A stretch of 64,000 nt of DNA from NCBI GenBank assembly GCA_024304985.1, contig JAMWZC010000004.1, positions 124,001 through 188,000 on the forward strand. Direction: 5' to 3'. The DNA is from Paracoccaceae bacterium. Its GTDB lineage: Bacteria; Pseudomonadota; Alphaproteobacteria; Rhodobacterales; Rhodobacteraceae. The translations under genes and the position numbers were made by a program. The notes under the pieces are model-generated. The model did not search any database. It was not told the origin of the DNA and saw only the letters and a program-made list of their open reading frames with translations. Below are positions 753 to 53,048 of this stretch, piece after piece; position 1 is the stretch's first letter; each line of letters opens with the position of its first letter.

Positions 753-777
753 AACCGGCCCGGCGGGTCATTGTTCC
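753..777 (-). promoter_or_regulatory. EcfG-like promoter for the 290-724 gene
   Basis: On the minus strand GGAAC (777-773) is followed after 17 bases by GTT (755-753), about 30 bases before the start codon. It is back-to-back with the plus-strand site at 792-816; the two -35 boxes are 14 bases apart. Confidence 0.75.
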
Positions 778-791
778 ATGCAACGACACAC

Positions 792-816
792 GGAACATCC
801 AGCCGCCCTGCCAGTT
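792..816 (+). promoter_or_regulatory. EcfG-like promoter for the 848-1081 gene
   Basis: GGAAC (792-796), 17 bases, GTT (814-816), ending 31 bases before the start codon at 848. Confidence 0.75.
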
Positions 817-847
817 GATCACCCCGTGACAACCAGAAAAGGCCAGA

Positions 848-1081
848 ATGATGATCAGACCGTTGATGTTGGTGACAGGCGCGGGCGTGGCCCTCTACGC
901 CTTGTCGAGAATGCTTCTGCCGCAGGCTGGGCGCTGCCTTGCCAGCACGCCGCGCATGGCCGCCGGGCCTGTGCGACCGGCAGGCTCCACGATGATCCGC
1001 GACACCCCGGAGCACTGGGACATGGTCGATGAACGCTCGGACGAATCCTTCCCCGCAAGCGATCCGCCGGGCACTTACTGA
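848..1081 (+). CDS. Small protein with SDESFPASDPPGTY C-terminus
   Basis: A 77-residue protein. The N-terminus (MMIRPLMLVTGAGVALYALS) is one hydrophobic helix, membrane anchor or signal. The C-terminus has the motif DERSDESFPASDPPGTY, which recurs in many short alphaproteobacterial proteins of unknown role. A purine-rich site (AAAAGGCCAGA) precedes the start. It is driven by the EcfG-like site at 792-816. No biochemical function is known to me. Confidence 0.75.
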   Translation: MMIRPLMLVTGAGVALYALSRMLLPQAGRCLASTPRMAAGPVRPAGSTMIRDTPEHWDMVDERSDESFPASDPPGTY

Positions 1082-1095
1082 CCGCCCCACCGGCC

Positions 1096-1129
1096 GTTCC
1101 GCCCCGCCTCTGTCAGGGCCGGGCGGAAC
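1096..1129. terminator. Hairpin between convergent genes
   Basis: A 9-bp perfect stem (1096-1104 with 1121-1129) in the gap between the convergent genes ending at 1081 and 1145. A terminator is inferred from position; there is no T-run. Confidence 0.5.
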
Positions 1130-1144
1130 ACCTTCCGACGGGTG

Positions 1145-2239: not shown

Positions 2240-2968
2240 TCACCGCGCGGCAAGCACCATTTCCTTGATCCAGCGGACCAATATTTCATCATAGACACGT
2301 CTGCTCTCAAGCCGGGACAGCGAATGATCCGCCCCCTCGATGATCCGATGCGTGATCGAACAGGCCCGCTTGAACGACGCCAGATAGCTGGCGATCGTCG
2401 GATGGGGAATGCGCTCGTCCTTCTCGGACTCAACGATCAGCACATCGCCCCCGAAATGCTGACAATGCTTCAACGCCCGGTTCGACATCAACGGCACCTC
2501 GGTGCTGCGATAAAGCCGCAGATCCTCGCGGTCGATCGCATCCTTTGGCTGATCCCAGTCATCATCGCTGTAAAGCGCAGGCACCCGCATCGCCAGCCAC
2601 TTGACCGGCCTGACAGCCGTCAGAAACGTGGACAGATAAGCACCATAACTACTCGCCACGACCAGAATACAGGACGCATCGACCGACGGATGGGTGACAA
2701 GTTTGTCATAGGCCGCGCAAATATCCTCAAGATTATCTGTCCGCGTCACTTTCGGCCGCTCGCTCTGCGTCAAACCGTGTCCACGCATGTCAAAGGTCAG
2801 ACAGACGCATCCCAGTCGCGAAATCGCGCGTGACCTTTCCGCATCGCGATCCTGACTGCCGTTCCATCCGTGAATGAACAGCACTCCCGGCAGGCCGGTG
2901 CGAGGCTCATAGAAATGCCCCTCCAGTTCGCGCTTCGCGATCCTTATCGTGGCATCCGTTTTCCTCAA
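2240..2968 (-). CDS. Alpha/beta hydrolase
   Basis: A 242-residue serine hydrolase. The oxyanion region is LFIHGWNG and the nucleophile elbow is ASSYG (Ser in V-A-S-S-Y-G, Ala replacing the first Gly). The acid is probably in SEKDERIPH and the catalytic His in EGADHSL. The start is inferred: a TTG at 2968 overlaps the TGA of the DUF3182 gene, fitting translational coupling; longer starts would overlap that gene heavily. No signal peptide, so cytoplasmic. The pair with DUF3182 suggests a joint pathway; the substrate is unknown. Confidence 0.85.
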   Translation of the reverse strand: MRKTDATIRIAKRELEGHFYEPRTGLPGVLFIHGWNGSQDRDAERSRAISRLGCVCLTFDMRGHGLTQSERPKVTRTDNLEDICAAYDKLVTHPSVDASCILVVASSYGAYLSTFLTAVRPVKWLAMRVPALYSDDDWDQPKDAIDREDLRLYRSTEVPLMSNRALKHCQHFGGDVLIVESEKDERIPHPTIASYLASFKRACSITHRIIEGADHSLSRLESRRVYDEILVRWIKEMVLAAR

Positions 2969-4083
2969 CTGTCTTCTCGCAGAAATGCATATTTCAGGAT
3001 CGGGCCAATGACAGGATCGGTGCCATGGAAATAAACCGTCGCTCCCGGTGGCGGAGTCGCGCCCACGCCATACCTCTCGACCGTGGAGGCCGTGACACGC
3101 TGCAACGCGGGATCGGCAAGAAACGCCTCTACGGCGGCAAGCTCCGCACCTGTTGCGCCGCCCACCCGCCAGGACTGCTCCAGCACGGCGCACTTGCAGC
3201 GCCCGGCCATATCCCTGCCGGTAATCACATCATAGTTGCGCCGCGATGCCCGCAGGCTCAGATGCCTGTCCGCCATCCTGTCAAATCCGACGGCCAGTGC
3301 GATGATGCTCTCCGTCTCGGGTGCCGAGGCCGCCAGAAGCTCCGGGAACCCACCCCGCACAATAGTCAGCGTCGATCCGCCATAGGCCGTCTCTCCGGCA
3401 TTGTCCTGCGTCACCTCCTGTGTGCCGACATAGGTGATCCGGGTCTCGCCAACCGTGACCTGACCCACGCTATAGGTTCGCGCATCGCTCAGGTTCTGCT
3501 CCAGAACGACCCCCTCTTCGACCTTCATGCTCTGCAAGACGCGCCGCAGGTCCGCCTCATCCGCCACGACATGCTGACCCTTGCCACCGCTGCCACTGAT
3601 GGACTTCAGCCTTACAGGCCCGCCGCGCAGCATCTCCTGCGCGCTTGCCACGACACCCGCCACGGTGAAAGCGGTCACACCCGGAAGAACCAGATCGCTG
3701 ATCCCGCAGGTGAAGGGTAACGGCCAATGCGGCGGCGGCACTTCGCCGTCGGCAAGCGGATGCACGATTCCCTTTGTCGCCAGCAGCGGATGTGGCACCC
3801 ACCCACCCAAGAACTGCGCCTCGCTGAAAGGTCCATCGCACCAGTGCGCGGCACCATCCTCGCCATGCAGGGTCTGCCTTGGCACACAATAGATGCCGGC
3901 CTCCCCCTCAGAATCCTCAAGCCGCCCGGCATAGTCACAACGCAAAAGCCGCGCGACGTGCCGCGACAGCGCCACATGCGAGCCGTCCTCATGCGAGAGC
4001 CCCCCGGCGCATCCCCAGGTAAACAGTTTCCGCGCCTCACTGTGGCAAGAGCCCGCCGCCGTCCTATTGAAACATCGCGTCAT
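2965..4083 (-). CDS. DUF3182 family protein (probably ATP-grasp-like)
   Basis: A 372-residue protein of the DUF3182 family. The central part (PVRLKSISGSGGKGQHVV, then EEGVVLEQNL) resembles the glycine-rich loop and hinge of ATP-grasp enzymes; the assignment to that fold is inference. The ATG at 4083 is preceded by AAGGAAG. An EcfG-like promoter ends 31 bases upstream, and the alpha/beta hydrolase overlaps its stop codon, so the two form one operon. A ligase plus hydrolase pair could make or trim a small conjugate, but no substrate can be named. Confidence 0.8.
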   Translation of the reverse strand: MTRCFNRTAAGSCHSEARKLFTWGCAGGLSHEDGSHVALSRHVARLLRCDYAGRLEDSEGEAGIYCVPRQTLHGEDGAAHWCDGPFSEAQFLGGWVPHPLLATKGIVHPLADGEVPPPHWPLPFTCGISDLVLPGVTAFTVAGVVASAQEMLRGGPVRLKSISGSGGKGQHVVADEADLRRVLQSMKVEEGVVLEQNLSDARTYSVGQVTVGETRITYVGTQEVTQDNAGETAYGGSTLTIVRGGFPELLAASAPETESIIALAVGFDRMADRHLSLRASRRNYDVITGRDMAGRCKCAVLEQSWRVGGATGAELAAVEAFLADPALQRVTASTVERYGVGATPPPGATVYFHGTDPVIGPILKYAFLREDS

Positions 4084-4113: not shown

Positions 4114-4138
4114 AACCACACCTCTGGCGGAATGTTCC
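4114..4138 (-). promoter_or_regulatory. EcfG-like promoter for DUF3182-hydrolase operon
   Basis: Minus strand GGAAC (4138-4134), 17 bases, GTT (4116-4114), 30 bases before the start at 4083. Confidence 0.75.
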
Positions 4139-4176: not shown

Positions 4177-5229
4177 CTAGGTCCGGTCAGCCATCATCCG
4201 CCCAAACCGCTCCAGCCATTGCAAGACAAGGTCTTCATCCGCCTCAAGCCCCTCTCGGATTTGCCGACGGCGCTTGCTGATGTCGTCCATCTGCGCCGCA
4301 AGCCGTCCCTCCTCCCAGGCCGAAACTACCTGCGGATGGATATAGCATTGCCGACAGACACTCCGGGTATGGTGCAACTCGTCCGCCACCGAAGCCACAA
4401 TCATGTTCAACGCTGCGGTCCGCTTGGTCTTGGCTTCCGGAACCTCTGTTCGCGCCAGCGACACAGCCGCTCTGAGAGTTGCCGACCAGGTCCGGAAATC
4501 CTTTGAGGTGAAATGCCCTCCCATGCTGCGGCGCATGTAGTCATTTACATCCTGCGAATGGACATCGCGCAACGCTCCGTCCTCGTCCACATAGCGAAAC
4601 AGACGTTGCCCCGGCAGATCCTGAAGCTGCCGGATCGTGCGCGCCACACGTCGGTCGGTGACCTTCAACATCCATCTGCGCCCGGACTTGCCCGTGAAAG
4701 ACAGCCGCAGCCGCGATCCTGTAAGCGACAGATGCCGCACCTGCAAGGTGGTCAGCCCGAAACTTTTGTTATCCTTGGCATAGCTGTCATTGCCAACCCG
4801 GATCAGCGTCTTGTCCAGCAACCAGATCACTGTCGCCAGCACCCGGTCCTGCGTCAGACGTCTTTGCCGCATGTCATCCTGCACATCGCCGCGCAACTGC
4901 GGCAGGCGTTTCGCAAACGATGGCAGCGACGCGAACTTCTGCTTGCCGCGCTCTGCCTCCCATATGCTGTGATAGCGGTATTGCTTGCGGCCCCGCGCAT
5001 CCCGTCCTGTCGCCTGCAAATGGCCATCCTCATGCGGGCAGATCCACACATCGCTCCAGGCCGGCGGGATCGCCAAAGCCCTGATCCGCGCCAGCGTTGG
5101 CCGGTCCGTGACCTTGTGCCCCTCGACATCGCGATAAAAGAAACCACGTCCCGCACCGATCCGGCGAAGCCCCGGTTCACTGTCCAGAACATAGATCAAG
5201 CCAGTCCCGTCAACATCTTGCTCTGTCAT
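4177..5229 (-). CDS. DNA topoisomerase IB (poxvirus type)
   Basis: A 350-residue type IB topoisomerase, which relaxes supercoils by nicking one strand through a 3'-phosphotyrosine. The N-terminal domain has LRRIGAGRGFFYRD and the conserved IPPAWSDVWICP. The catalytic domain shows the Arg in TLIRVGNDSYA, the Lys in LSFTGKSGR, the Arg in TSKDFRTW and the nucleophile Tyr in VCRQCYIHPQV. Length and motifs are complete. It has its own EcfG-like promoter, divergent from the TIGR02587 gene. Bacterial versions are often stress-regulated; the role is inferred as DNA maintenance under stress. Confidence 0.95.
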   Translation of the reverse strand: MTEQDVDGTGLIYVLDSEPGLRRIGAGRGFFYRDVEGHKVTDRPTLARIRALAIPPAWSDVWICPHEDGHLQATGRDARGRKQYRYHSIWEAERGKQKFASLPSFAKRLPQLRGDVQDDMRQRRLTQDRVLATVIWLLDKTLIRVGNDSYAKDNKSFGLTTLQVRHLSLTGSRLRLSFTGKSGRRWMLKVTDRRVARTIRQLQDLPGQRLFRYVDEDGALRDVHSQDVNDYMRRSMGGHFTSKDFRTWSATLRAAVSLARTEVPEAKTKRTAALNMIVASVADELHHTRSVCRQCYIHPQVVSAWEEGRLAAQMDDISKRRRQIREGLEADEDLVLQWLERFGRMMADRT

Positions 5230-5267: not shown

Positions 5268-5292
5268 AACCCCGCAGGCCCCACCTTGTTCC
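5268..5292 (-). promoter_or_regulatory. EcfG-like promoter for topoisomerase IB
   Basis: Minus strand GGAAC (5292-5288), 17 bases, GTT (5270-5268), 38 bases before the start at 5229. Confidence 0.75.
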
Positions 5293-5315
5293 GCGCCCGT
5301 CGAAGCGCAATCACC

Positions 5316-5340
5316 GGAACAGGACCGTGTTTCGCAGGTT
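5316..5340 (+). promoter_or_regulatory. EcfG-like promoter for TIGR02587-TIGR02588 operon
   Basis: GGAAC (5316-5320), 17 bases, GTT (5338-5340), 43 bases before the ATG at 5384; divergent from the topoisomerase site, -35 boxes 23 bases apart. Confidence 0.75.
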
Positions 5341-5383: not shown

Positions 5384-6223
5384 ATGACAGCCGACCAAAG
5401 CAAGATTGAAGCGAAATCCGTCAGCAAGGCCCTGACCGGCCTTAGCCGGGGCTTCGGCGGTGCGCTGATCTTTGCACTGCCCCTCTTCATGACGATGGAG
5501 ATGTGGTGGATTGGCGCCTATCTCGACCGCACCCGCCTTGTCCTGCTGTTGGTCCTCAACATCCCCCTTCTGACCCTGCTCTCGCGCCACGCCGGATTCG
5601 AAGAAACGAACCTCTGGCGTGATGATTTGCGCGACGCGGGCATCGCCTACGGGATTGGCCTGATCACTTGCGCGGGAACGCTGGCCGTTCTGGCCCTGAT
5701 CAACCCCGCGATGACCGCGGATGAGATCATCGGAAGGATCGCCGTCCAATCCGTCCCGGCCAGTATCGGCGCGATGCTGGCCTCGACGCAGCTGGGCGTG
5801 CATACCGCCGAAGTTGATGAAAGCAACAGGCCGAATTTCTATCTCACCGCCCTGTTCCTCATGTGCACGGGCGCCCTGTTTCTGGGCCTGAATGTCGCCC
5901 CGACCGAAGAAATGGTTCTCATTTCCTACAAGATGACGCAATGGCACGCCGTCGCCCTGATCGTCCTGTCCATCGCCGTCATGCACGGCTTCACCTTCGC
6001 AATGGAATTCCGGGGCACCGCAAAAACCCCTGAAAGCGGACGGCTTGCCGCCTTCTTTTCCTTCACGATTGTTGGCTATGCCATCGCGGTATTGGTCAGT
6101 TTCTATGTCTTGTGGACCTTCGGACGCATGGACGACACGTCTTTCCCCCAGAACCTGATCGCCGTCTGCGTGCTTGCCTTTCCCGCCTCGGTCGGCGCCG
6201 CCGCAGCACGTCTCATTCTCTGA
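5384..6223 (+). CDS. TIGR02587 family integral membrane protein
   Basis: A 279-residue polytopic membrane protein with about seven hydrophobic segments, the first containing FMTMEMWWIGAYLDR, a signature of the TIGR02587 (DUF2391) family. The acidic loop VAPTEEMVLIS is also conserved in this family as I remember it. It is followed 9 bases later by a TIGR02588 gene; the two families nearly always occur as a pair. No biochemical role is established. The EcfG-like promoter places the pair in the stress regulon. Confidence 0.9.
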   Translation: MTADQSKIEAKSVSKALTGLSRGFGGALIFALPLFMTMEMWWIGAYLDRTRLVLLLVLNIPLLTLLSRHAGFEETNLWRDDLRDAGIAYGIGLITCAGTLAVLALINPAMTADEIIGRIAVQSVPASIGAMLASTQLGVHTAEVDESNRPNFYLTALFLMCTGALFLGLNVAPTEEMVLISYKMTQWHAVALIVLSIAVMHGFTFAMEFRGTAKTPESGRLAAFFSFTIVGYAIAVLVSFYVLWTFGRMDDTSFPQNLIAVCVLAFPASVGAAAARLIL

Positions 6224-7433: not shown

Positions 7434-7784
7434 TCACCGGACAAGCAGCAGGTTGCGCACGTTCAGAACGCCCGGAACAGTGTTCACCTTCGCCGTCACC
7501 AGGGACCGCTGAAACTCGGTGGACGTCACGCCTTCTACCGTCACCACACCCTCGTGCACCGTGACAGCGATATTGGCTCGCGCCAACCGCCCGTCCAGCG
7601 CCAGACAGCGCCGGATCTCTTCGCCAAGATCAGCGTCAGACACCCTCACACCGGGCGGCGGCACCGGGTTGACCGGCGCGATGGGTTGCAGCACGTCCTT
7701 CGTATCCGCCGGCCGATACGGTCCGGCCAGATCGGATCTGACGTGCGTCGTGCCGGGAACGGGGTCTCGATCATCGTCTGCCAT
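7434..7784 (-). CDS. BON-domain protein
   Basis: A 116-residue protein. The ATG at 7784 has a GGAG site upstream. The N-terminal 50 residues are polar and Pro-rich; the rest is one BON domain (LGEEIRRCLALDGRLARANI, then VTVHEGVVTVEGVTS and VPGVLNVRNLLLV). BON domains are thought to bind lipids or envelope components and occur in osmotic-stress proteins such as OsmY. There is no signal peptide with this start. A perfect EcfG-like promoter ends 36 bases upstream. Confidence 0.9.
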   Translation of the reverse strand: MADDDRDPVPGTTHVRSDLAGPYRPADTKDVLQPIAPVNPVPPPGVRVSDADLGEEIRRCLALDGRLARANIAVTVHEGVVTVEGVTSTEFQRSLVTAKVNTVPGVLNVRNLLLVR

Positions 7785-7820: not shown

Positions 7821-7845
7821 AACACGCCGCGCCGCGCTTTGTTCC
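7821..7845 (-). promoter_or_regulatory. EcfG-like promoter for the BON gene
   Basis: Minus strand GGAAC (7845-7841), 17 bases, GTT (7823-7821), 36 bases before the start at 7784. Confidence 0.75.
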
Positions 7846-8195: not shown

Positions 8196-9164
8196 TCAGG
8201 ACGGAATATCTCCCACCGCACCTGCACGATCCGTATCCTGCGCCGACCCGCGCGATGTTCCGCCTGCGGCACCAAACCCGCGCTCCCCGGATGCCTTGGT
8301 CACAGCCTCACCCAGCTTCGCGCGCTCCTCTGCAAGGATACGCTCGGCCTCATGGATCAGTTCGTCACTGGTCTGCCCGAAATGCTCATCCTCAAAGCGC
8401 GTGTGCGGCAAGGCTGCACCGACAGCCGCGCCGATGGCCATGGCCAGGGCACCCGCAATCATCGGCTGCTCCTCGAACAGATCAGCGGCCTTCTCACGTC
8501 CATGCCGCATCTGCGCCATCGCCGCCTCACGCGCCTCATGCGCTTTCTCGCGGGCGGCGATCACACGCGCGCGCCCCTCTTCCGTCAGGTGCTCCGTCCC
8601 TTCGGCCAGCCGCTCGCGCAGCGCCGCAGCCCGTTCCTTGACGGAATCGGCGGTCTCATGCAGCCTGTCGCGCGCCGCACCCGAGGCGCGCGCCATCCTC
8701 TGCGCGGCGCTCTCGCCCTCATCCTCCTGCGATTCTGCGTCCTGCGTTACATCAACGCCGCGCACCCAGGCCGGAACATCCGCGTCCCGTGTCACACCCC
8801 GGTTGCCCGAGGCCCAGGACCGCGGCGCGCCATACTGGGACCGGGCATAGAACTCCCGGTAATCGCGACGATCACCATGATCGCGGTCATCATCCCGCTG
8901 CACAGCACCACGACCCGACCTGTCCCCAAAGATCAGCCAGGCCAGACCAACTCCGGTCACGGCAATCGCCAGCGGGTTCTCCTTGACCGCGCGCGACACA
9001 GACGCGCCGATGTCGCCGCTATGCGCGCGCAACTGTCCCGCCGCCTCACGCACCAGCGTATCGACCGAGAACTTGGTCCTCAAGTCATGCAGATCCTCGG
9101 ACAGCCCCGCACGTTCCCGCTCAAGCTGGCGTTCGATCTCTTCCGGTGAACGATGATCAGTCAT
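8196..9164 (-). CDS. DUF3618 domain-containing envelope stress protein
   Basis: A 322-residue protein. Residues 1-40 hold the DUF3618 motif (SPEEIERQLERERAGLSEDL), followed by a short membrane helix (NPLAIAVTGVGLAWLIFG) around residues 63-80. The middle is an alanine/arginine/glutamate-rich coiled coil, and a second hydrophobic stretch (IAGALAMAIGAAVGAALP) lies near residue 245. Its start overlaps the stop of the holin-like gene by 8 bases. Function is unknown; family members cluster with holin-like proteins, as here. It is the last gene of a four-gene operon. Confidence 0.85.
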   Translation of the reverse strand: MTDHRSPEEIERQLERERAGLSEDLHDLRTKFSVDTLVREAAGQLRAHSGDIGASVSRAVKENPLAIAVTGVGLAWLIFGDRSGRGAVQRDDDRDHGDRRDYREFYARSQYGAPRSWASGNRGVTRDADVPAWVRGVDVTQDAESQEDEGESAAQRMARASGAARDRLHETADSVKERAAALRERLAEGTEHLTEEGRARVIAAREKAHEAREAAMAQMRHGREKAADLFEEQPMIAGALAMAIGAAVGAALPHTRFEDEHFGQTSDELIHEAERILAEERAKLGEAVTKASGERGFGAAGGTSRGSAQDTDRAGAVGDIPS

Positions 9165-9546
9165 TGTAACTATCCTTTACGATTTGCGCGTCTCGCTTGA
9201 CGTTTTCTGCGGTGCGGGTCGGTGCCAGCGAAGTCAGCTTCAGCTCGGATTTCCCTTTCTGGAGCATCATGTAAGCGACGATGGCAAAGCCAAGGCCCAC
9301 GATCAGCGCGGACCAACCGCCCGGAATCCCCAACTCGGTCAGGGCCGCGACCAAGGCCGCCGTCAGCACATTCAACGCGGTCAGGGCAATGACCAGGGCC
9401 GCGACGATCATGCCGACGGCGAGGGCGGCCTTGTGCAGGTTCTCATTCACTTCGGCGCGGGCCAGATCGACTTCGCCACGCACAAGGCTGCTGATCCGGG
9501 CAAGCGCGTCGTTCAAAATCTCGCTGGTGGATTTATCCGTGTTCAT
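9157..9546 (-). CDS. Holin-superfamily (DUF1469-like) membrane protein
   Basis: A 129-residue protein with an amphipathic N-terminal helix (ARISSLVRGEVDLARAEVNE) and two membrane helices forming a hairpin (about residues 40-75 and 80-98). This is the layout of the Actinobacteriophage holin 3/DUF1469 family, whose bacterial members are not lysis proteins. The ATG at 9546 was chosen over the GTG at 9552 because it has the better distance to the G-rich site. Third gene of the operon. Confidence 0.85.
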   Translation of the reverse strand: MNTDKSTSEILNDALARISSLVRGEVDLARAEVNENLHKAALAVGMIVAALVIALTALNVLTAALVAALTELGIPGGWSALIVGLGFAIVAYMMLQKGKSELKLTSLAPTRTAENVKRDAQIVKDSYND

Positions 9547-10195: not shown

Positions 10196-10220
10196 AACCT
10201 GCACCCGTCCAACTTGTTCC
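10196..10220 (-). promoter_or_regulatory. EcfG-like promoter for the 22-residue peptide to DUF3618 operon
   Basis: Minus strand GGAAC (10220-10216), 17 bases, GTT (10198-10196). Confidence 0.75.
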
Positions 10221-10277
10221 GAAGAATCCACAGCGCAGCGCCCCCCCGCCCGACGCCGGGTCGGCGACGGATAGCGG

Positions 10278-10302
10278 GGAACATCACGCGGCCGCGACGG
10301 TT
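10278..10302 (+). promoter_or_regulatory. EcfG-like promoter for the ferritin-like gene
   Basis: GGAAC (10278-10282), 17 bases, GTT (10300-10302), 76 bases before the start at 10379. Confidence 0.75.
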
Positions 10303-10378
10303 CCGGGTCTGTGGCGTCGCGCGACGCCTCGCAACTGCGCTGCGACAAAGCGCAATCCATCGCAACCCGGAGGTTCCC

Positions 10379-11930: not shown

Positions 11931-11955
11931 AACCCGAGAGCCGGGCCAAAGTTCC
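11931..11955 (-). promoter_or_regulatory. EcfG-like promoter for ectD
   Basis: Minus strand GGAAC (11955-11951), 17 bases, GTT (11933-11931), 66 bases before the start. Confidence 0.75.
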
Positions 11956-43801: not shown

Positions 43802-45621
43802 CCCTGACGAAACGCGCCCGCGCCTATGGCCTCCAACCCACCTATACGGTGGTGGACGGCCCCGACCGCACCGCCCCGCCCGACACCCTGACCGCCCTGC
43901 TCAAAGCCTTCGGTGCCGACACCGCCCCACCGCTAGAGGTCGAACCGCGCCTCGCAGCCCCCGAAAACACGGCCTGCTTTCTGCCGCCTGATACGCATCT
44001 GTGGGGGATCGCGCTGCAACTCTATCAGCTGCGCAGCAGCCGCAACTGGGGGATTGGCGACTTTGCCGATCTGGAACATCTGGCGCGGATCGTGGCCCCC
44101 ATGGGCGCGGATTTTCTGGGCCTCAACCCGCTTCATGCCCTGTTTCTGGCCGCACCTACGCAATGCAGCCCTTTCTCGCCCTCCAACCGGCGCTTTCTGA
44201 ACCCGCTCTATCTGGCCGTGGATCGCGTGCCGGGGTTCCTGCCCGATATGGTGGCTGACGCCGAACTGGACAGCCTGCGCCAGTCCGATCTGGTCGATTA
44301 CGCAGGTGTCGCCTCCGTCAAACTGCGCGTGCTGCGCTCCATCTGGGACGGCGGTGCCGCCCTTCCCGACAGCTTCCTGCTTGAAGGCGGCGACGCCCTT
44401 CATCGCCACGCGCTTTTCGATGCGCTCTCGGCCCATATGGTCGCGCAGGGGCACGGCGCGGGCTGGCGCAACTGGCCCGGCGCATGGCACGACCTCAACG
44501 GCAAAGCGGTGCAGGATTTCGCACAGCAGCATCAGGATCAGGTCAGGTTTTTCCAATGGCTTCAGTATCTGTGCAATCATCAACTCCACAGCCTGCGCGC
44601 ACTCTGCGACCAGCTTGGGATGCGGATCGGCCTTTATCTCGATTTCGCCGTGGGTGAAGCGGCGGACGGCTCCGGCAGTTGGGGCAGCCCCGATGTGCTG
44701 GCCGATGTGCGGATCGGATCGCCGCCCGATGCCTATAACGAACAAGGTCAGGACTGGGGCCTCGCCCCGCTGTCGCCGCTGGCCATGGCGCGCAGCCACG
44801 CCGCCCCGTTCCGCGCGCTGATCGCGGATGCCACCCGTCAGGCCGGGGCCCTGCGGATAGATCACGCCATGGGCCTGTGGCAACTCTACCTGATCCCGCC
44901 CGGCGCAACCGCCGCTGCGGGCACCTATGCCCGCTACCCCGTAACCAACATGCTCTTCGCGCTGGCCGATGCATCGCGGGCAAACCGCACCGTGATCATC
45001 GGCGAGGATCTGGGCAATGTCCCCGACGGATTTCAGGATGTGATGGAAGCGTGCAATATCCTGTCCTATCGAATCTATTTTTTCGAACGCGGTGCCAAAG
45101 GGTTCATCCCTCCTGCCGACTATCCGCAATCGGCACTGGCCTGCCTCTCGACCCACGACCTGCCCACCTTTCGCGGCTGGTGGCGTGGCGACGATATCGC
45201 GCTGCGGAAACGCTTTGGCCTGATCGCCGCCAAAGGCGCGCGCAAGCAGGACCGCGACCGCAAGGCCGAACGCGCCGATGTCCTTGTCGATCTGCAAAAG
45301 GCGGGCCTTCTGACCGCAGCGCAGGCGTGCCAGATCACCCCCGACGACGCCACGCCAGACCTGATCACCGCCATCCACGCCCATCTGGCTACCGCGCCCT
45401 CCCACCTCTTCGCCGCCCGGCTCGAGGATCTGGCCGCCGAACTGCACCCCGTCAACATCCCCGCCACGGTCGATGAATATCCCAACTGGCGGCGCAAGCT
45501 GTCGCTGACCTTGGATGAACTGGTGCAAACGCCGCTCTTTCAGACCACGCTCGCCGCCATCGCCGCCGCCCGTCCCGGCTCCCCCTCCCGCTCCCGCACT
45601 CAATCCCGAGGTGGCAGATGA
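43798..45621 (+). CDS. malQ: 4-alpha-glucanotransferase (amylomaltase)
   Basis: A 607-residue GH77 enzyme that shuffles alpha-1,4-glucan segments between chains. Motifs: LYQLRSSRNWGIGDFADLE, the nucleophile in LRIDHAMGLWQLYLIP, the acid in IIGEDLGNVPDGF and CLSTHDLPTFRGWW. The N-terminus is slightly short compared with E. coli MalQ (694). Overlaps with treZ and treY by ATGA. Confidence 0.95.
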   Translation: MTLTKRARAYGLQPTYTVVDGPDRTAPPDTLTALLKAFGADTAPPLEVEPRLAAPENTACFLPPDTHLWGIALQLYQLRSSRNWGIGDFADLEHLARIVAPMGADFLGLNPLHALFLAAPTQCSPFSPSNRRFLNPLYLAVDRVPGFLPDMVADAELDSLRQSDLVDYAGVASVKLRVLRSIWDGGAALPDSFLLEGGDALHRHALFDALSAHMVAQGHGAGWRNWPGAWHDLNGKAVQDFAQQHQDQVRFFQWLQYLCNHQLHSLRALCDQLGMRIGLYLDFAVGEAADGSGSWGSPDVLADVRIGSPPDAYNEQGQDWGLAPLSPLAMARSHAAPFRALIADATRQAGALRIDHAMGLWQLYLIPPGATAAAGTYARYPVTNMLFALADASRANRTVIIGEDLGNVPDGFQDVMEACNILSYRIYFFERGAKGFIPPADYPQSALACLSTHDLPTFRGWWRGDDIALRKRFGLIAAKGARKQDRDRKAERADVLVDLQKAGLLTAAQACQITPDDATPDLITAIHAHLATAPSHLFAARLEDLAAELHPVNIPATVDEYPNWRRKLSLTLDELVQTPLFQTTLAAIAAARPGSPSRSRTQSRGGR

Positions 45622-48230
45622 TCCCCCTGCGCGCCACCTACCGTCTGCAATTCAACCGCGACTTCCGCTTTGCCGACGCCGCCGCCCTCGCGCCCTATCT
45701 TGCCGCCCTTGGGATCAGCCATGTCTATGCCTCGCCCATTTTCGCCGCCCGTTCCGGCAGCACGCATGGCTATGACATCACCGATCCCAACCGCCTCAAC
45801 CCCGATCTGGGCATCCTGTCCGACTTCCGCGACATGGTGAAAACCCTGCGCGATCATGGGCTTGGCTTGATACTCGACATCGTGCCCAACCACATGGGCA
45901 TTGGCGGCGCCGACAATGCCTTCTGGGACAGTGTGCTGGAATGGGGCCCGGACAGCCCCTATGCCCACTGGTTCGACATCGACTGGACCGCGCCCGCCCT
46001 TGCCGGCAAAGTCCTGATGCCCTTCCTCGCCCAACCCTATGCCATCGCGCTCGCCGAAGGCGCGCTGGCCCTTCACCTTGATCCCCAAGGCCGCCTTGCT
46101 GTCTGGGCGCATGATACGCACCGCCTCCCGATCTGCCCGCGCGACTATGGCCACGTGCTCCAAACCGCAGGCTCGGTCCTCGCGCCCGCCTTCCAGCACA
46201 TTACCCACGCCCCGCCCGGCGATCCCCGCTGGCCCGCGCTTTTCCTTCACCTCGGCGCCGAACGCCCTGACCTGTCGGCCTTCACCGATCCCGCCCGCCT
46301 TGACGCGCTGATCCGACGGCAGCACTGGCGCGCCGCCAGACACACCCTCGCCGCCGATGCCATCAACTACCGCCGCTTCTTCACCATCAGCGACCTTGCC
46401 GCCCTGCGCGTGGAATCCCCGCAGGTCTTTGCCCAGACACACGCCCTCGTGCTCTCTCTGGTCGAGGAGGGGCTGGTCGATGGCCTGCGCATCGACCATA
46501 TCGACGGCCTGCGCGACCCCAAGGCCTATTGCCTGCGCCTGCGCGACGCCACCAAGGGGCGCATCCCGATCCATGTCGAAAAAATCCTCGGCCCCGACGA
46601 ACACCTCCCGCCGGACTGGCAGACCCAGGGCACAACCGGCTACGAATTCGCGAACCAAACCGTCACACTGCTGGCCGATCCCGCCGGCACCGATGACCTG
46701 AACCGCCTCTACCGCGACACCACAGGCCAGCGCGACAGCCCGCAACAGGTGGTGCGCGACGCCAAGCGCGCCGTCCTTCGCGGCCCGATGCGCGCCGAAC
46801 GCGAGGCCGTGCTGACCCGCATCGCCGCCCTCGCCGCGCAGATCCCCGCTTGGGCCGATCTCGGCCTTGGTGCCATCCGCGAGGGTATCAACCAGACCAT
46901 AGCCGCACTGGATGTCTACCGCACCTATACCGATGACGACGGTATCGCCCCCGAAGGCCGCGCCCGCCTCTCGACCGCCATCGCGCGCGCAAGCCAGCAC
47001 AGCCCCGACCTTGACCCCGTCATCTGGTCCCTGCTCGCGGCCGTCCTGACCCGCGACCTTGCCGCCCGTCTGCCCGATCACCGTGACGCCGTCACCGACG
47101 CCGCCCTACGCTTTCAGCAACTCTCCGGCCCCGTCATGGCCAAGGGGCTGGAAGATCGCGCCCTCTACCGCTTCAACCGCCTGATCGCGCTGAACGAAGT
47201 CGGCTCCCACCCCGGCCATGTCACCACATCCGTCGCCGCCTTCCATCACGCGCAACGCACCCGACAGCAGCACCACCCGCTCACCATGCTTGCCACCGCC
47301 ACCCATGACACGAAGCGCGGCGAGGATGCGCGGATGCGGATCGTCACCATCGCAAGCCATACCGGCCTCTGGCGTCAGAAAGTGACGGAATGGACCGCCC
47401 TTCTGCACGACCCGCACCATCCCGTTGATCCAAATGAGGGGTATTTCTTCTACCAGTTGCTCACCGGGGCATGGTCCGACAACACCCCCGCCGACCTTGG
47501 CCCCCTCAAGGACCGCGTCACGGCGGCCATGCTGAAATCCCTGCGCGAAGCGGGCGTCAACAGCCGCTGGATCTTCCCGGACCACAGCTATGAAGGGCAT
47601 GTCTCCGCCCTGATCGACCGCGCCTTCGCCTCTGACGCATTCCTCGCCTCCTTCTCCGATTTTCTCCGCCGCATCACACCGCAAGCCGAACAGAACAGCC
47701 TGATCCAGACACTTCTGAAACTGACGGTGCCGGGCGTGCCCGATATCTATCAAGGGGCCGAGATGTGGGACCACAGCCTTGTCGATCCCGACAACCGCCG
47801 CCCGGTTAGCTTTGCCCGGAACGCGGGTGCCATCACGGGCCTCATCGGCGCCCCGGTCCATACCGGAAACCGCCCCGCAGCCACAGTGAAACGCGCGCTC
47901 ATCGCCACGCTGCTGGACCTGCGCGCCAATCATCCCGCGCTTTTCACCCATGGAAGCTACACCCCCCTCACGGCCCATGGCCCCGCCGCCGACAGCCTTC
48001 TGGCCTTCATCCGACAGCACAGGGGCGAACGCCTGCTTGTGGCGGCGCGCCTGCATCCTGCCAGCCACGACCCGGCCGCATGGCAAAGCACCCGGCTTCC
48101 GCTGCCGCAGGATGAAACACCCCACTGGGTCAATCTGATCAACGCGCAACCCTGCGACCCGCGTGATCCGACCCAGATCTTCCGCGACCTGCCACTGGCC
48201 GTCCTGCGCCCGGACGATCATCGCGCCTGA
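45618..48230 (+). CDS. treY: Malto-oligosyltrehalose synthase
   Basis: An 870-residue GH13_26 enzyme that converts the reducing end of maltodextrins to a trehalosyl unit. Motifs: RATYRLQFNRDFRFADA at the N-terminus, GISHVYASPIFAARSGSTHG, the nucleophile in DGLRIDHIDGLRDPKAY, the acid in IHVEKILGPDEHLP and TATHDTKRGEDARMR. It is the last gene of the seven-gene operon. Confidence 0.95.
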   Translation: MIPLRATYRLQFNRDFRFADAAALAPYLAALGISHVYASPIFAARSGSTHGYDITDPNRLNPDLGILSDFRDMVKTLRDHGLGLILDIVPNHMGIGGADNAFWDSVLEWGPDSPYAHWFDIDWTAPALAGKVLMPFLAQPYAIALAEGALALHLDPQGRLAVWAHDTHRLPICPRDYGHVLQTAGSVLAPAFQHITHAPPGDPRWPALFLHLGAERPDLSAFTDPARLDALIRRQHWRAARHTLAADAINYRRFFTISDLAALRVESPQVFAQTHALVLSLVEEGLVDGLRIDHIDGLRDPKAYCLRLRDATKGRIPIHVEKILGPDEHLPPDWQTQGTTGYEFANQTVTLLADPAGTDDLNRLYRDTTGQRDSPQQVVRDAKRAVLRGPMRAEREAVLTRIAALAAQIPAWADLGLGAIREGINQTIAALDVYRTYTDDDGIAPEGRARLSTAIARASQHSPDLDPVIWSLLAAVLTRDLAARLPDHRDAVTDAALRFQQLSGPVMAKGLEDRALYRFNRLIALNEVGSHPGHVTTSVAAFHHAQRTRQQHHPLTMLATATHDTKRGEDARMRIVTIASHTGLWRQKVTEWTALLHDPHHPVDPNEGYFFYQLLTGAWSDNTPADLGPLKDRVTAAMLKSLREAGVNSRWIFPDHSYEGHVSALIDRAFASDAFLASFSDFLRRITPQAEQNSLIQTLLKLTVPGVPDIYQGAEMWDHSLVDPDNRRPVSFARNAGAITGLIGAPVHTGNRPAATVKRALIATLLDLRANHPALFTHGSYTPLTAHGPAADSLLAFIRQHRGERLLVAARLHPASHDPAAWQSTRLPLPQDETPHWVNLINAQPCDPRDPTQIFRDLPLAVLRPDDHRA

Positions 48231-48267: not shown

Positions 48268-48293
48268 GGAACAAATGCACCATGCCCCGGGTT
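48268..48293 (+). promoter_or_regulatory. EcfG-like promoter (18-base variant) for the 48333 gene
   Basis: GGAAC (48268-48272), 18 bases, GTT (48291-48293), 39 bases before the start at 48333. Confidence 0.6.
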
Positions 48294-48748: not shown

Positions 48749-49249
48749 ATGGCTCAATCGACACTCGACACCCTCTTTCACGAGACGCTCAAGGACATCT
48801 ATTACGCCGAGCGCAAGATCGCGACGGCCCTGCGCAAGATGGCCCGTGCCGCCAATAGCGACGACGTGAAAGCCGCATTTGAGACTCATGAGCAGGAAAC
48901 GCAGGCGCAATATGAGCGTTTGTCGGACGTGTTCGACGCCATCGGTAAGCGGCCGCGTGGCAAGACCTGCGACGCCATCGAAGGCATCATTGCCGAAGCC
49001 AGCGAGATCATGGACGAATTCAAGGACAGCCCCGCGCTGGACGCAGGATTGATCGCCGCGGCACAGGCGGTCGAACACTATGAAATCGCGCGCTACGGCA
49101 CGCTCAAGACATGGGCCACCCAACTGGGCCATACCGATGCAGCGGACCTGCTGGAGAAAACCCTGCAAGAGGAAACCGCGACCGACGACATCCTCACCCG
49201 ACTGGCGGAAACGCTCGCCAACCCCAAGGCGCAGAAGAAGTCAGCCTGA
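48749..49249 (+). CDS. YciE/YciF-type ferritin-like protein (DUF892)
   Basis: A 166-residue helical protein of the DUF892 family: TLDTLFHETLKDIYYAERKI, then FETHEQETQAQYERL and AAQAVEHYEIARYGTL, TLQEETATDDIL. These four Glu/His-bearing helices form a diiron bundle in YciF. YciE/YciF proteins are general-stress proteins of unclear enzymatic role. AAAGGAGAAG precedes the ATG. No GGAAC box directly upstream; it may be read from 48268. Confidence 0.9.
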   Translation: MAQSTLDTLFHETLKDIYYAERKIATALRKMARAANSDDVKAAFETHEQETQAQYERLSDVFDAIGKRPRGKTCDAIEGIIAEASEIMDEFKDSPALDAGLIAAAQAVEHYEIARYGTLKTWATQLGHTDAADLLEKTLQEETATDDILTRLAETLANPKAQKKSA

Positions 49250-50122: not shown

Positions 50123-50147
50123 GGAACAATTCGCCGCCCCGTCTGTT
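50123..50147 (+). promoter_or_regulatory. EcfG-like promoter for the PQQ dehydrogenase
   Basis: GGAAC (50123-50127), 17 bases, GTT (50145-50147), 24 bases before the ATG at 50172. The rest of the gap 49814-50122 holds no supported gene, only a short GGTTCGG repeat around 49930-49970. Confidence 0.78.
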
Positions 50148-50171
50148 CCCCCCTATTATAAGGAGGGCCTC

Positions 50172-52661
50172 ATGACCGCACGCACCCCATCATCCCCACC
50201 CCATTCCCCCCGTTACCCTGCCTCGACGGCAAGCCTCTGGTGGTCCAGACTGATCGCCGCCATCCTGCTGATCTTCGGCCTCCCCCTCGCCGCAGGCGGC
50301 GCCTGGCTCATCTCTCTGGGCGGGTCATGGTATTACCTGCCCGCAGGCCTCGCCCTGCTCGCGACAGCCATCCTCATCCTGCGCCGCAACCCGCTGGCCG
50401 TCTGGGTCTACCTCGTAACCTATATCGCGACGGTGATCTGGGCCTTGTGGGAAGCAGGCCTCGACCCGTGGGCGCAAGTGCCCAGACTACTCGCCCCCAG
50501 CATCGTGCTGCTGCTCGTGCTGACAACCCTCCCTGCCCTTCGCTCCCCAACACCCCGCCGCTCCACCGCAGTGGCCGGTGTCGGGATACTGGCCAGCAGT
50601 CTCGGCCTTCTCATGCATCCCATCACCCCCGCCATGGCGCAGCAGGCCCCGAACCCGCCCGAGAGCGCAAGGGATGTGACCGGAGCGACCGAAACCGAAA
50701 CTCCATACATCGACCTCGAAACCGGCAGCGACTGGCCCGCCTACGGCGGCACTCATCATTCGATGCGATATTCCCCCCTGACCCAGATCACCAAGGAAAA
50801 CGTCGGACAGCTTGAAAAGCTTTGGGAGTATCGCACCGGCGACCTTCCTCAAGACGATGAGCCCTACGGTAATGAAAACACGCCGGTCAAGATTGGCGAA
50901 CGGCTCTATCTCTGCTCGGCCATGAACAAGATCACCGCGCTGAACGCGGCTAACGGCACGGAATACTGGACTTACGACCCCGAAACTCCGGCCGACGCCA
51001 TCGGATACAACGCCACCTGCCGCGGACTGATATACTTCGAAGATCCGACGGCCGATCAGGATGAAGTCTGCGCCGCCCGCGTCGTGAACCTGACCCATGA
51101 CGCCCGCATGATCGCGCTGGACACGCAGACCGGGCAGCTTTGCCCGGACTTCGGTGACGGTGGCATTGTGAACCTGATGGACGGCATGGGAGACTACCCG
51201 CCCGGCTTCTATGCGCCGACCTCGCCGCCGACACTGGTGAGGGATGTTCTGGTTGTGGGCAGTCAGGTCAGTGACGGGCACACGCTTGAAGCGCCGTCGG
51301 GCGTTATCCGTGGCTACAACGTCCTCACCGGCGCGTTGAACTGGGCTTGGGATATGGGCCGTCCGGGTGAAACGGATCAGCCGCCAGAGGGCGAGATCTA
51401 TACCCAAGGCACGCCGAACATGTGGACCGTCGCCTCAGGCGACAGCGAGCTTGGGCTGGTTTACATGCCAATGGGCAATTCAGCCGTTGACTACTGGGGC
51501 GGCGACCGCAGCGAGGTCGAGAACGCCTATTCCACCGCAATCGTCGCCCTTGATGTCGAGACCGGGGAGGTAGCCTGGCACTATCAAACGGTGCATTATG
51601 ACGTCTGGGACTATGATCTGGGCGGACAGGGCACGCTGGTTGATTTCCCCACCGAGGATGGTCCGGTTCCCGCGATCATTATGCCGTCCAAACAGGCGCA
51701 GTTCTTTATCCTGAACCGTGAGACAGGCGAGCCGCTGGTCAATATCGAAGAGCGTCCTGCCCCTCAGGGTGGGGTCGAGCCGGACCGGCTGTCACCCACA
51801 CAACCCTTTGTCACGGATTTTCCCAATCTCCTGAAGCCAACCGTGACCGAGGCCGACATGTGGGGCGCGACCCCGCTGGACCAGTTGTGGTGCCGCATCC
51901 AGTTCAGACAGGCCGCCTATGACGGCGTCTATACCCCACCGACCGCCGATCGCCCGTGGATTCAATTTCCGGGTTACAACGGCGGTGTTGACTGGGGTGG
52001 CGTGGCTGTCGATCCAGAGACAGGCATCATGATCACCAACTACAACAACATGCCGAACTACAACCGACTGATCGAGCGCGAAACGGTCGAGGAGTCGGGA
52101 GTCAGGTCGATCACGGACCCTGACTATGATCCCGATGCAGGAGGCGGGTCGCACGGGTCGATCAATCCACAGGCGGGCGCGCCCTATGGCATCCGGGTCA
52201 ACGCAGGCTGGAGAGTGCCCTACACGGGTCTGCTGTGCACCGAGCCGCCCTATGGCGGGATCGCCGCCATAGATCTGAACACGCGGGAGGTGCTGTGGGA
52301 CCGCCCCTTTGGCACCGCCCGCAAGAACGGACCGTTTGGAATTCCGTCAATGCTGCCGTTTGATATCGGCACCCCGAACAACGGGGGTGGCGTCATCACC
52401 GCCTCGGGTCTGTTCTTTATCGGTGCCGCGACCGACGACCTGTTCCGCGCCATTGATGTGCAGACGGGCGAACGGCTTTGGGATGTTGAGTTGCCGGCAG
52501 GTGGTCAGGCGGGCCCCATGACCTATGAGGCCGAGGGGCGCCAGATCGTCGTGATCAACGCCGGGGGCCATGACTTCATGGAGACACCCATCGGGGACTA
52601 TTTCATCGCCTACGCTCTGCCCGAAGAGGTCGTTCAGAACCAGGGTTCTAAGGCCGAGTAG
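50172..52661 (+). CDS. gcd: Membrane-bound PQQ-dependent dehydrogenase (glucose/quinate/shikimate family)
   Basis: An 829-residue quinoprotein. Residues about 20-155 form five membrane helices, and the rest is the periplasmic beta-propeller: DWPAYGGTHHSMRYSPLTQI, TYDPETPADAIGYNATCRGL, the HYDVWDYDLGGQGTLVDF motif with the catalytic Asp region, and GGVDWGGVAVDPETG. This is the membrane glucose dehydrogenase layout (E. coli Gcd 796 residues), which passes electrons to ubiquinone. AAGGAGGG precedes the ATG. The pqqABCDE genes at 29-32 kb would supply its cofactor. Confidence 0.93.
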   Translation: MTARTPSSPPHSPRYPASTASLWWSRLIAAILLIFGLPLAAGGAWLISLGGSWYYLPAGLALLATAILILRRNPLAVWVYLVTYIATVIWALWEAGLDPWAQVPRLLAPSIVLLLVLTTLPALRSPTPRRSTAVAGVGILASSLGLLMHPITPAMAQQAPNPPESARDVTGATETETPYIDLETGSDWPAYGGTHHSMRYSPLTQITKENVGQLEKLWEYRTGDLPQDDEPYGNENTPVKIGERLYLCSAMNKITALNAANGTEYWTYDPETPADAIGYNATCRGLIYFEDPTADQDEVCAARVVNLTHDARMIALDTQTGQLCPDFGDGGIVNLMDGMGDYPPGFYAPTSPPTLVRDVLVVGSQVSDGHTLEAPSGVIRGYNVLTGALNWAWDMGRPGETDQPPEGEIYTQGTPNMWTVASGDSELGLVYMPMGNSAVDYWGGDRSEVENAYSTAIVALDVETGEVAWHYQTVHYDVWDYDLGGQGTLVDFPTEDGPVPAIIMPSKQAQFFILNRETGEPLVNIEERPAPQGGVEPDRLSPTQPFVTDFPNLLKPTVTEADMWGATPLDQLWCRIQFRQAAYDGVYTPPTADRPWIQFPGYNGGVDWGGVAVDPETGIMITNYNNMPNYNRLIERETVEESGVRSITDPDYDPDAGGGSHGSINPQAGAPYGIRVNAGWRVPYTGLLCTEPPYGGIAAIDLNTREVLWDRPFGTARKNGPFGIPSMLPFDIGTPNNGGGVITASGLFFIGAATDDLFRAIDVQTGERLWDVELPAGGQAGPMTYEAEGRQIVVINAGGHDFMETPIGDYFIAYALPEEVVQNQGSKAE

Positions 52662-52715
52662 GCGCCCTTCGCGTTACTGCGTCAACGGCGTCTGGCACCG
52701 TCCCATCTGAAAAGC

Positions 52716-52757
52716 GAACGATCCGCAGATAGTATTCAGCGGATCGTTCTTTTTTTA
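52716..52757 (+). terminator. Rho-independent terminator of the PQQ dehydrogenase gene
   Basis: A perfect 11-bp stem (52716-52726 with 52739-52749, 12-base loop) followed by a run of seven T. Confidence 0.92.
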
Positions 52758-52778
52758 TGAGCGAGATGAGCTGGATCG

Positions 52779-52994
52779 TTAGTCAGCGGGCGCAGATGGT
52801 GGCCTGTTAGGGTCAGCAGGCTGCGTCGGCTCCTCGACCCTCCCGGGATCGGGCGCGGTTTCTTCGGTCCAGTTGCCGACCACGACCATGACGAGAACGA
52901 GCAGAATGAAGCCGAGCGGGATCATTGCGTAGATCAGGCTGCGGGGCATCCCGCGGCCAGGCTTGGGGTCGGTCTTTCTGCTGTGCTGTGTCAT
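52779..52994 (-). CDS. 71-residue membrane peptide with acidic proline-rich tail
   Basis: Basic N-terminus, one membrane helix (LIYAMIPLGFILLVLVMVVV) and a Pro/Asp/Glu tail (APDPGRVEEPTQPADPNRPP). AAGGAGGA precedes the ATG at 52994. The layout is as in 28360-28611. It has its own EcfG-like promoter. Function unknown. Confidence 0.75.
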   Translation of the reverse strand: MTQHSRKTDPKPGRGMPRSLIYAMIPLGFILLVLVMVVVGNWTEETAPDPGRVEEPTQPADPNRPPSAPAD

Positions 52995-53023
52995 GTCGTC
53001 CTCCTTGACGGTGTATCGGGATC

Positions 53024-53048
53024 AACAGGATTGGTCGAACAATGTTCC
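53024..53048 (-). promoter_or_regulatory. EcfG-like promoter for the 71-residue peptide
   Basis: Minus strand GGAAC (53048-53044), 17 bases, GTT (53026-53024), 30 bases before the start. Confidence 0.75.

Follow-up and report, generated by a model that had tools for sequence, protein, structure and literature searches.

For the EcfG family of sigma factors the PhyR-NepR step is established, and the textbook −10 letters of EcfG promoters are CGTT. In this study we analyzed a window of 64,000 bases (G+C 61.6%) from a Paracoccaceae genome of 3.76 Mb in 13 contigs, in which pairs of GGAAC and GTT at the spacing of EcfG promoters lie close together. The window is the stretch 124,001-188,000 of contig C8 (window coordinates are C8 coordinates minus 124,000). 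The spacer classes N16, N17 and N18 give the letters between GGAAC and GTT, so that a GGAAC-N16-CGTT site counts as N17. We consider it likely that the window is the main part of a stress island of about 66 kb, probably acquired horizontally, in which a non-canonical EcfG and its regulon lie side by side.

About half of the alphaproteobacterial genomes carry several EcfG genes, and the widespread extra copies are called not satisfactorily explained in the available text of PMC3892343. The same source describes the EcfG2 of Rhizobium etli as plasmid-borne and without a NepR or PhyR gene nearby; every member of the EcfG2 subgroup in its tree is plasmid-borne. Two EcfG sigma factors in a hierarchy are reported for Sphingopyxis granuli in the available part of PMC7083833, while PMC11218460, as far as its text was available, names EcfG only in its references. 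No description of targets gathered around the sigma gene is found in the available parts of PMC3892343, PMC4814048, PMC7083833 and PMC11218460, and a literature search with most subscription journals outside its scope gave no report of such an EcfG regulon island. The gathering of a regulon around an EcfG2-type sigma, repeated in two orders, seems to be new. A plasmid-borne EcfG2 is already known from R. etli, and the island is probably a rich example of an EcfG2-type accessory regulon.

The EcfG2 of R. etli, on plasmid p42f, resembles the sigma factor encoded in the island (the island sigma) in being non-canonical, in having no NepR or PhyR nearby, in the GGAAC-N16-CGTT promoter family and in ferritin-like genes in the vicinity. 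We counted 14 N17 sites in 49 kb of p42f; a stretch of 12.5 kb next to the sigma gene (L196:24423-36944; sigma gene at 24674) holds 11 of these, and this layout is a small version of that of the island. The two sigma factors are 46% identical and stand apart in a poorly resolved tree, with the R. etli row on a long branch; the island is larger, has more sites and is located on a 476 kb contig with uvrB. With the canonical PhyR-NepR-EcfG response the island has promoter geometry and gene functions in common, whereas its sigma has no NepR or PhyR neighbour, its presumed regulon forms one block and GGTT is more frequent than CGTT. Methylobacterium extorquens is alike in its several EcfG proteins per cell and in the EcfG consensus GAAC-N16,17-C/GGTT; it differs in that its ecfG genes are not stress-induced, and a regulon cluster is not mentioned in the available part of PMC4814048. 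In Sphingopyxis granuli there is likewise a hierarchy, and one sigma gene has an EcfG-type promoter and the other has none; there, however, both sigma genes lie within the canonical locus and the hierarchy leads from EcfG2 to EcfG1 (PMC7083833, available part).

Both strands of the window hold 39 matches to GGAAC-N16-18-GTT (27 N17, 10 N18 and 2 N16), compared to 4.1 expected from the shuffled window (standard deviation 2.0, largest 11). The original prediction, 23 N17 and 4 N18 copies spread over 53 kb, was right about the motif and its clustering but too low in number and too narrow in extent: the block covers about 66 kb (C8:110.8-177.0 kb) and starts 13 kb left of the window. In a spacing scan of this island (C8:110,700-177,100; 66.4 kb) we found 39 N17 and 11 N18 sites, and 0-5 sites for each of 15 other spacers (N10-16, N19-26). 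The control, twenty 20-kb stretches of the same genome (400 kb on six contigs, one stretch around the C11 locus described below), gave 7 N17 and 10 N18 sites, which is the range of the other spacers there (3-13); two of the seven N17 sites belong to the nepR promoter on C11, where they form a pair. Hence the density elsewhere does not equal that of the island, where N17 sites are 34 times as dense (39 in 66.4 kb against 7 in 400 kb), and the excess is bound to spacers 17 and 18. The N16 class was discarded, being at background level in the island (2) and in the relatives' loci (38).

Genome-wide the pattern GGAAC-N16-18-GTT occurs 262 times, 39 times in the window (1.7% of the genome), and the reversed pattern taken as control occurs 535 times. 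As the reversed pattern is commoner, the total of the plain pattern does not amount to an excess, and it is the spacing and location of the sites that carry the case. The sharper pattern GGAACAW-N14/15-GTT occurs 42 times (reversed pattern 23): 29 of these occurrences fall in C8:110,789-177,048, 21 within the window and 8 to its left, and the other 13 are scattered. Among the 39 island N17 sites GGAAC is followed by A in 31, and the position after that holds A or T in 34; GTT is preceded by G in 20, T in 9, C in 7 and A in 3. The EcfG promoter geometry that had been proposed is right as to class, but the expected CGTT (7/39) is outnumbered by GGTT (20/39).

With gene starts and transcription units as called by our own script, 37 of the 39 island N17 sites are intergenic (14.5% for random positions). 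A same-strand gene start follows within 150 nt in 31 (8.2% for random positions), at a distance of 25-79 nt in 25 of these. Flipping the orientation still leaves 20 of the 39 with a start no more than 150 nt away; this score is high because many sites lie between divergent genes, so that orientation alone is moderate evidence. The claim that the sites lie in intergenic DNA ahead of gene starts thus stands. Seven of the 11 N18 sites are intergenic and four have a start within 150 nt. Altogether, 36 of 48 transcription units have an N17 or N18 site within 250 nt upstream.

A search with PF04542 gave 13 sigma-70 region 2 genes in the genome. The island sigma (C8:117,995-118,468, 157 amino acids) lies approximately 6 kb left of the window within the motif cluster and has the sigma2 and sigma4 domains of EcfG/PhyR type that mark EcfG (ECF15): PhyR_sigma2 (66 bits), Sigma70_r2 (66 bits) and Sigma70_r4_2 (45 bits). 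Its best solved-structure match is 5uxx, an RNA polymerase sigma factor (9.8e-33). Putative EcfG-type promoters surround it, though with G commoner than C before GTT, and a GGAAC-N16-CGTT site, GGAACCACATTTCAGCGGGTGCGTT, is found 76 nt upstream of its own start. The ecfG, phyR and nepR genes presupposed by the original prediction are all present, at C11:174.3-177.9 kb: phyR (174,316-175,125, minus strand), nepR and ecfG (175,388-175,978) lie together with a HisKA_2/HWE kinase gene. There GGAACCAAACGCCTGTTGACGCGTT precedes nepR with the geometry seen in the island. The only NepR match (PF18557) in the whole genome is the one at C11, and a simple pattern found no NepR within about 2 kb of the island sigma, which thus lacks the adjacent nepR and phyR that the C11 locus has. 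An EcfG-like sigma without local NepR or PhyR on accessory DNA corresponds to what the available text of PMC3892343 describes, the accessory status being judged here from the congeners. Island sigma and canonical EcfG are 41-42% identical. Four EcfG-like genes were found in the genome at E 1e-20; the two further ones, at C1:166,734-167,180 (minus strand) and C8:364,925-365,374, are 41% identical to the island sigma. An EcfG-type regulon had been read from the promoter class, and this is supported. As the block has its own EcfG-like sigma, the term accessory regulon island describes it better than that of a canonical EcfG regulon lying together.

In the family search, 152 of 295 genomes (own included) had an EcfG-like match at 1e-20, and 12 other genomes had a match more than 50% identical to the island sigma. 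The best genome-contig matches are from Pleomorphomonas, a Rhodobacteraceae metagenome-assembled genome (MAG), Tabrizicola and Paracoccus (64-65%). The plasmid search matched 480 records; among the 40 listed, the 14 best are all from Paracoccus (57-66%). We kept 80 loci around the closest sigma homologues (1.53 Mb), and they contain 467 N17, 161 N18 and 38 N16 sites, with 19-54 (about 36) for each other spacer. Per 20 kb, the densest loci have 17 (Frigidibacter sp. SD6-1) and 16 (Tabrizicola) N17 sites, followed by the Rhodobacteraceae MAG and Nitratireductor sp. ZSWI3 with 14 each. Five whole genomes were scanned, four of them picked for a dense locus, and in these the clusters stand on a scattered background: 21 of 35 sites in 46 kb in Frigidibacter, 13 of 39 in 37 kb in Nitratireductor, 13 of 34 in 20 kb in P. 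siganidrum, 6 of 12 in 4 kb in Devosia and at least 10 of 41 in 19 kb in Tabrizicola. In ten genomes of the family, seven of which carry the sigma and three of which do not, the matches listed showed at most small clusters, such as G135 C12:42-65 kb and G285 C14:186-203 kb.

Seven plasmid loci have 12, 11, 6, 2, 1, 9 and 10 N17 sites. On three Paracoccus plasmids, P. marcusii pKGP3, P. aminovorans plasmid IV and P. liaowanqingii unnamed3, the sigma is 60-66% identical to that of the island and 9-12 N17 sites occur in 40 kb each. Between them they carry DUF892 or other ferritin-like, SDR, DUF3008, PRC-barrel, DUF3618, Ku and GlgE/TreS/GlgB/MalQ genes; they differ from the island in being plasmid-borne and in their smaller clusters. 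Adding the seven Paracoccus/Roseivivax plasmid loci and R. etli p42f to the 80 genome loci gave 88 foreign loci. There an N17 or N18 site stands within 250 nt in 171 of 309 upstream regions of island-gene homologues, compared to 5 with shifted spacers (10 upstreams with N13/14 or N21/22, halved, referring to all 309). While one must keep in mind that the 309 include the sigma gene (40/88) and the twin DUF892 and Ku queries, which apparently match the same genes (37 loci for each DUF892 query and 11 for each Ku query, counted twice in 171/309), without the sigma, one DUF892 and one Ku query we still find a site in 87 of 173 upstream regions. The DUF892 ferritin-like gene is the most constant motif-bearing neighbour (36 of 37 homologue upstreams). 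No site was found upstream of the homologues of LigD (0/8) or cytochrome oxidase subunit I (0/9) in the foreign loci.

The sites before sigma genes differ from those before other genes. In the 80 loci, 25 N17 sites occur 0-260 nt before the sigma match (in 22 loci). Of these 16 read CGTT, compared to 102 of 442 other N17 sites (Fisher p 3e-5), and 6 read GGAACA, compared to 265 of the 442 (Fisher p 6e-4), where both p values ignore the relatedness among loci. In the 22 loci of the island sigma's clade (clade grouping covered 79 of the 80 loci, L123 being left out) GTT is preceded by G in 81 of 136 sites and by C in 22, the shifted-spacer control having G in 65 of 213; A follows GGAAC in 96 of 136 (control 55 of 213). 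These differences suggest a division in which the canonical EcfG would read the sigma gene and the island sigma the target genes. The pattern GGAAC-N16/17-CGTT occurs 58 times in the genome (8 in the island), the shifted spacers N20/21 give 35 (1 in the island) and the pattern read backwards 125. Outside the island this leaves a mild excess of 50 against 34, so that the canonical EcfG may have only a small regulon of the GGAAC-N16/17-CGTT form.

It could instead be the canonical EcfG of C11 that reads the island promoters, in which case the island sigma would be a minor or decaying paralogue and the block a cluster of ordinary EcfG targets. The consensus sequences overlap, the geometry at the nepR promoter is identical, and both R. 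etli and M. extorquens have EcfG paralogues with common targets (PMC3892343, PMC4814048, as far as available). The 50 against 34 occurrences outside the island, however, leave few other targets apparent for the canonical EcfG, the clusters go with the non-canonical sigma in many other genomes, and G rather than C prevails before GTT in the loci of its clade. We therefore regard a reading by the canonical EcfG as rather unlikely, though it is the strongest of the alternatives.

For an island with its own sigma, we propose the following order of events. Upon stress the host PhyR would be phosphorylated and NepR drawn off the canonical EcfG, which would transcribe the island sigma gene from its GGAAC-N16-CGTT promoter; the island sigma, possibly together with EcfG, would transcribe the island genes. 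In a more general and tentative form, which we find somewhat less probable than not, Alphaproteobacteria might swap self-contained "plug-in" stress regulons. Each would consist of a non-canonical EcfG and dozens of GGAACA-N16-GGTT promoters with their genes, wired to the host by a single GGAAC-N16-CGTT promoter read by PhyR-NepR-EcfG. Hosts would then differ in stress tolerance mainly by the block, while the chromosomal EcfG regulon stays small.

The features of the island, in window coordinates, are as follows.

From about -13,000, left of the window: genes for Ku, LigD, Ku, DUF3008, DUF892, DUF305 and PRC-barrel proteins
-6105 to -6081: GGAAC-N16-CGTT site before the island sigma gene
-6005 to -5532, plus strand, left of the window: island sigma gene
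1 to 251 (C8:123,169-124,251), plus strand: 3' end of an SDR oxidoreductase gene, with which the left arm enters the window
753 to 816: divergent N17 pair, 753 (minus) and 792 (plus), before 290-742 (minus) and 848-1081 (plus)
2006, minus strand: N17 site, 44 nt before 1711-1962
Within 2006 to 2143: N17 site 2049 (plus) and N18 site 2118 (plus), no gene found behind either
4114 to 4138, minus strand: N17 site, 31 nt before the DUF3182 gene 2965-4083 (minus)
5268 to 5340: divergent N17 pair before topoisomerase IB 4177-5229 (minus) and a DUF2391 membrane protein 5384-6223 (plus)
7821 to 7845, minus strand: N17 site, 37 nt before the BON-domain gene 7434-7784 (minus)
10196 to 10304, minus-strand side: N17 sites before 9549-10070, 9157-9546 (holin-like) and 8196-9164 (DUF3618), all minus
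10196 to 10304, plus-strand side: N17 sites before the ferritin-like gene 10379-10834 (plus)
10908 to 11864, minus strand: EctD ectoine hydroxylase (TIGR02408, 357 bits, cut-off 336.5)
11931 to 11955, minus strand: N17 site, 67 nt ahead of ectD
11986 to 12011, plus strand: N18 site, 93 nt before 12104-13144 (LPG_synthase_TM) and 13141-15339 (glycosyltransferase)
15647 to 15741: divergent N17 pair before 15346-15597 (minus) and sodC 15780-16328 (plus)
16399 to 16423, plus strand: N17 site, 52 nt before the PRC-barrel gene 16475-16879
18801 to 20834, minus strand: large catalase of the katE type, with N17 site 20987-21011 (minus) 153 nt before the called start
21123 to 23393, plus strand: otsB (trehalose-phosphatase) and otsA (GT20), with N17 site 21875-21899 before otsA
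24404 to 24429, plus strand: N18 site, 37 nt before the small gene 24466-24693
27962, minus strand: N17 site before the amine oxidase gene 26343-27917
28233, minus strand: N17 site before 28034-28198
28279 to 28303, plus strand: N17 site before 28360-28611
32336 to 32360, plus strand: N17 site, 34 nt before the glgE-treS-glgB-glgX-treZ-malQ-treY operon
32394 to 48230, plus strand: this operon, for GlgE, TreS-maltokinase, GlgB, GlgX, TreZ, MalQ and TreY (maltosyl, trehalose and glycogen functions)
48268 to 48293, plus strand: N18 site, 40 nt before two small genes
48749 to 49249, plus strand: DUF892 ferritin-like gene after the small genes, a separate unit with no site of its own
50123, plus strand: N17 site, 25 nt before the membrane PQQ-dependent (glucose-type) dehydrogenase gene
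50172 to 52661, plus strand: membrane PQQ dehydrogenase (TIGR03074, 948 bits)
53024 to 53048, minus strand: last N17 site of the island, 30 nt before the small gene 52779-52994 (minus)

The twelve units without a site include pqqB, DUF1622, the Pyrid_ox_like gene 1145-1645, the PRC-barrel gene of the left arm and the DUF892 gene at 48749. For eight N17 sites no gene start lies within 150 nt; the window holds six of these (2049, 6788, 7937, 10280, 20987 at 153 nt, and 25267). The cytochrome oxidase genes at 53.2-58.1 kb of the window have no forward site.

Searches with Pfam and NCBIfam profiles supported the gene names given earlier (katE, sodC, ectD, topoisomerase IB, BON, PRC-barrel, ferritin-like, glgE operon, PQQ dehydrogenase). 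By these profiles the cargo comprises functions in double-strand break repair (two Ku, LigD) and DNA topology (topoisomerase IB), oxidative-stress enzymes (Cu/Zn superoxide dismutase, large catalase), ferritin-like proteins (two DUF892, DUF2383) and sugar enzymes (OtsB, OtsA, GlgE, TreS-maltokinase, GlgB, GlgX, TreZ, MalQ, TreY, glycosyltransferases). Further members are CinA-like, DUF3008, DUF305, two PRC-barrel, SDR oxidoreductase, Pyrid_ox_like, DUF3182, DUF2391, BON, DUF3618, holin-like, ectoine hydroxylase, amine oxidase and membrane PQQ dehydrogenase genes, so that membrane or envelope proteins are among the products; several small island genes had no Pfam or NCBIfam match. PqqC and PqqD family matches were found, and a beta-lactamase-fold and a radical-SAM gene were taken as PqqB and PqqE. 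Directly before pqqB, at window 29176-29277 and outside the gene calls, stands a 33-residue open reading frame (ORF) that we take to be pqqA-like from its motif, so that the set looks like pqqABCDE.

The history of the block was approached through the sigma tree and six congeners (G296, G298 and G299 are less than 90% complete). In a quick tree of 107 sequences and 146 columns with many unresolved forks, the island sigma falls into a 28-row clade (SH-aLRT 100) of Paracoccaceae, Paracoccus plasmids, Pleomorphomonas and Devosia, no member of which is NepR-adjacent by a simple pattern; the canonical EcfG of the genome groups with two congeners. All six congeners have some EcfG-like match, but one close to the island sigma (57%) occurs in G299 alone; the other five have no sigma more than 44% identical to it at E 1e-20. 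Clustered sites likewise occur only in G299 (36 sites), the other five having 10, 11, 12, 17 and 18 scattered ones. The block is thus absent from five of six close relatives, as is expected of a genomic island. In G298, homology from the uvrB side stops within 5 nt of the 3' end of tRNA-Arg facing the island (C8:196,024-196,100, outside the motif core). In the five congener stretches compared, matches lie on the uvrB side only, except for a 186-base G297 match at C8:67.8-68.0 kb. G+C content was uninformative as a mark of transfer (island 61.9%, control 63.1%).

The genes might also have been gathered in this lineage by separate events beside a second EcfG, with no travelling unit. Such a history would agree with relatives that hold only parts of the cargo, with integrase, tRNA and TniB-like genes lying outside the motif core and with the lack of an attachment (att) repeat. 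It fits less well with five congeners devoid of both close sigma and cluster, with a sigma clade that mixes orders, with the Paracoccus origin of the 14 best among the 40 listed plasmid matches, and with the stop of homology at tRNA-Arg in G298. We judge it improbable, more so than a reading by the canonical EcfG. That the sites bind a dedicated transcription factor or are repeats spread by a mobile element would account for the high local density, the gene-less sites and the two sites read on both strands, but is highly improbable, since only two short boxes and their spacing are kept and the spacer sequence is not, the geometry is that of EcfG promoters with an EcfG-like sigma encoded within, and the motif stands ahead of homologous genes in other genera.

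Several observations speak against a transferred island in which the canonical EcfG switches on a second sigma with promoters of its own. In 58 of the 80 loci no N17 site lies within 260 nt before the sigma match. Seven of the 80 have a single N17 site, so that the pattern is not universal. On the plasmids of P. methylovorus and P. alcaliphilus the sigma is accompanied by no more than 2 and 1 N17 sites in 40 kb, and the gene sets of the relatives overlap the cargo only in part. GGTT fits the C/GGTT of the M. extorquens consensus, and a private −10 specificity is therefore not established. The two EcfG sigmas of R. etli act in parallel and not in series (PMC3892343), and stress induced no ecfG promoter in M. 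extorquens (PMC4814048), according to the available parts of both papers; both findings argue against a cascade of this simple kind. Among the five congeners that lack the block, two genomes reach a completeness of only 72% and 84%, and two island sites (10278/10280 and 50123/50125) match on both strands and are hence counted twice. As attachment site tRNA-Arg had to be rejected: no exact tRNA repeat of 13 nt or more was found in C8:84-208 kb, mismatched repeats not having been sought. With no att repeat and an undefined left end the transfer unit is not proven.

If the island is what we propose, a regulon that shares exchangeable DNA with such a sigma would provide a concrete and testable answer to the question of extra EcfG copies raised in PMC3892343 (available text). 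General stress tolerance, usually regarded as a core chromosomal trait, would be acquirable in few steps, and the data suggest that a stress response may pass between bacteria as a block. The promoter pattern allows such blocks to be found by sequence alone.

Around the island, an AlpA, a Toprim/DUF7146 and a tyrosine integrase gene lie at C8:99.3-102.7 kb (L044:15332-18720), outside the motif core, and this set resembles a satellite or island module. A TniB-like AAA protein is encoded to the left of the island, where the DNA is AT-rich (49% G+C; C8:104.9-105.9 kb; L045:909-1898, minus strand). Window 62,271-62,462 contains a piece of an IS4/5-family transposase. Between island and tRNA-Arg stand predicted GTPase-associated conflict genes (metallophosphatase, GASH, DO-GTPase1; C8:189.3-195.6 kb; L046:1327-7624). 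Near both ends only short, unremarkable general repeats were seen, and one 13-mer beside tRNA-Arg recurs within the glg operon. An exoD-like gene is apparently split (L045:13197-13457 and 13566-13784), its first part matching the N-terminal part of ExoD. The gene-less N17 and N18 sites (window 2049, 2118, 6788, 7937 and 25267) may serve small RNAs or small proteins; a brief search behind them for short ORFs with a ribosome site yielded little. Finally, the sites at window 10278-10304 and 50123-50149 and at L196:25241-25267 of R. etli p42f read GGAAC-N17-GTTCC with the strands offset by 2, and such sites are possible two-way promoters.

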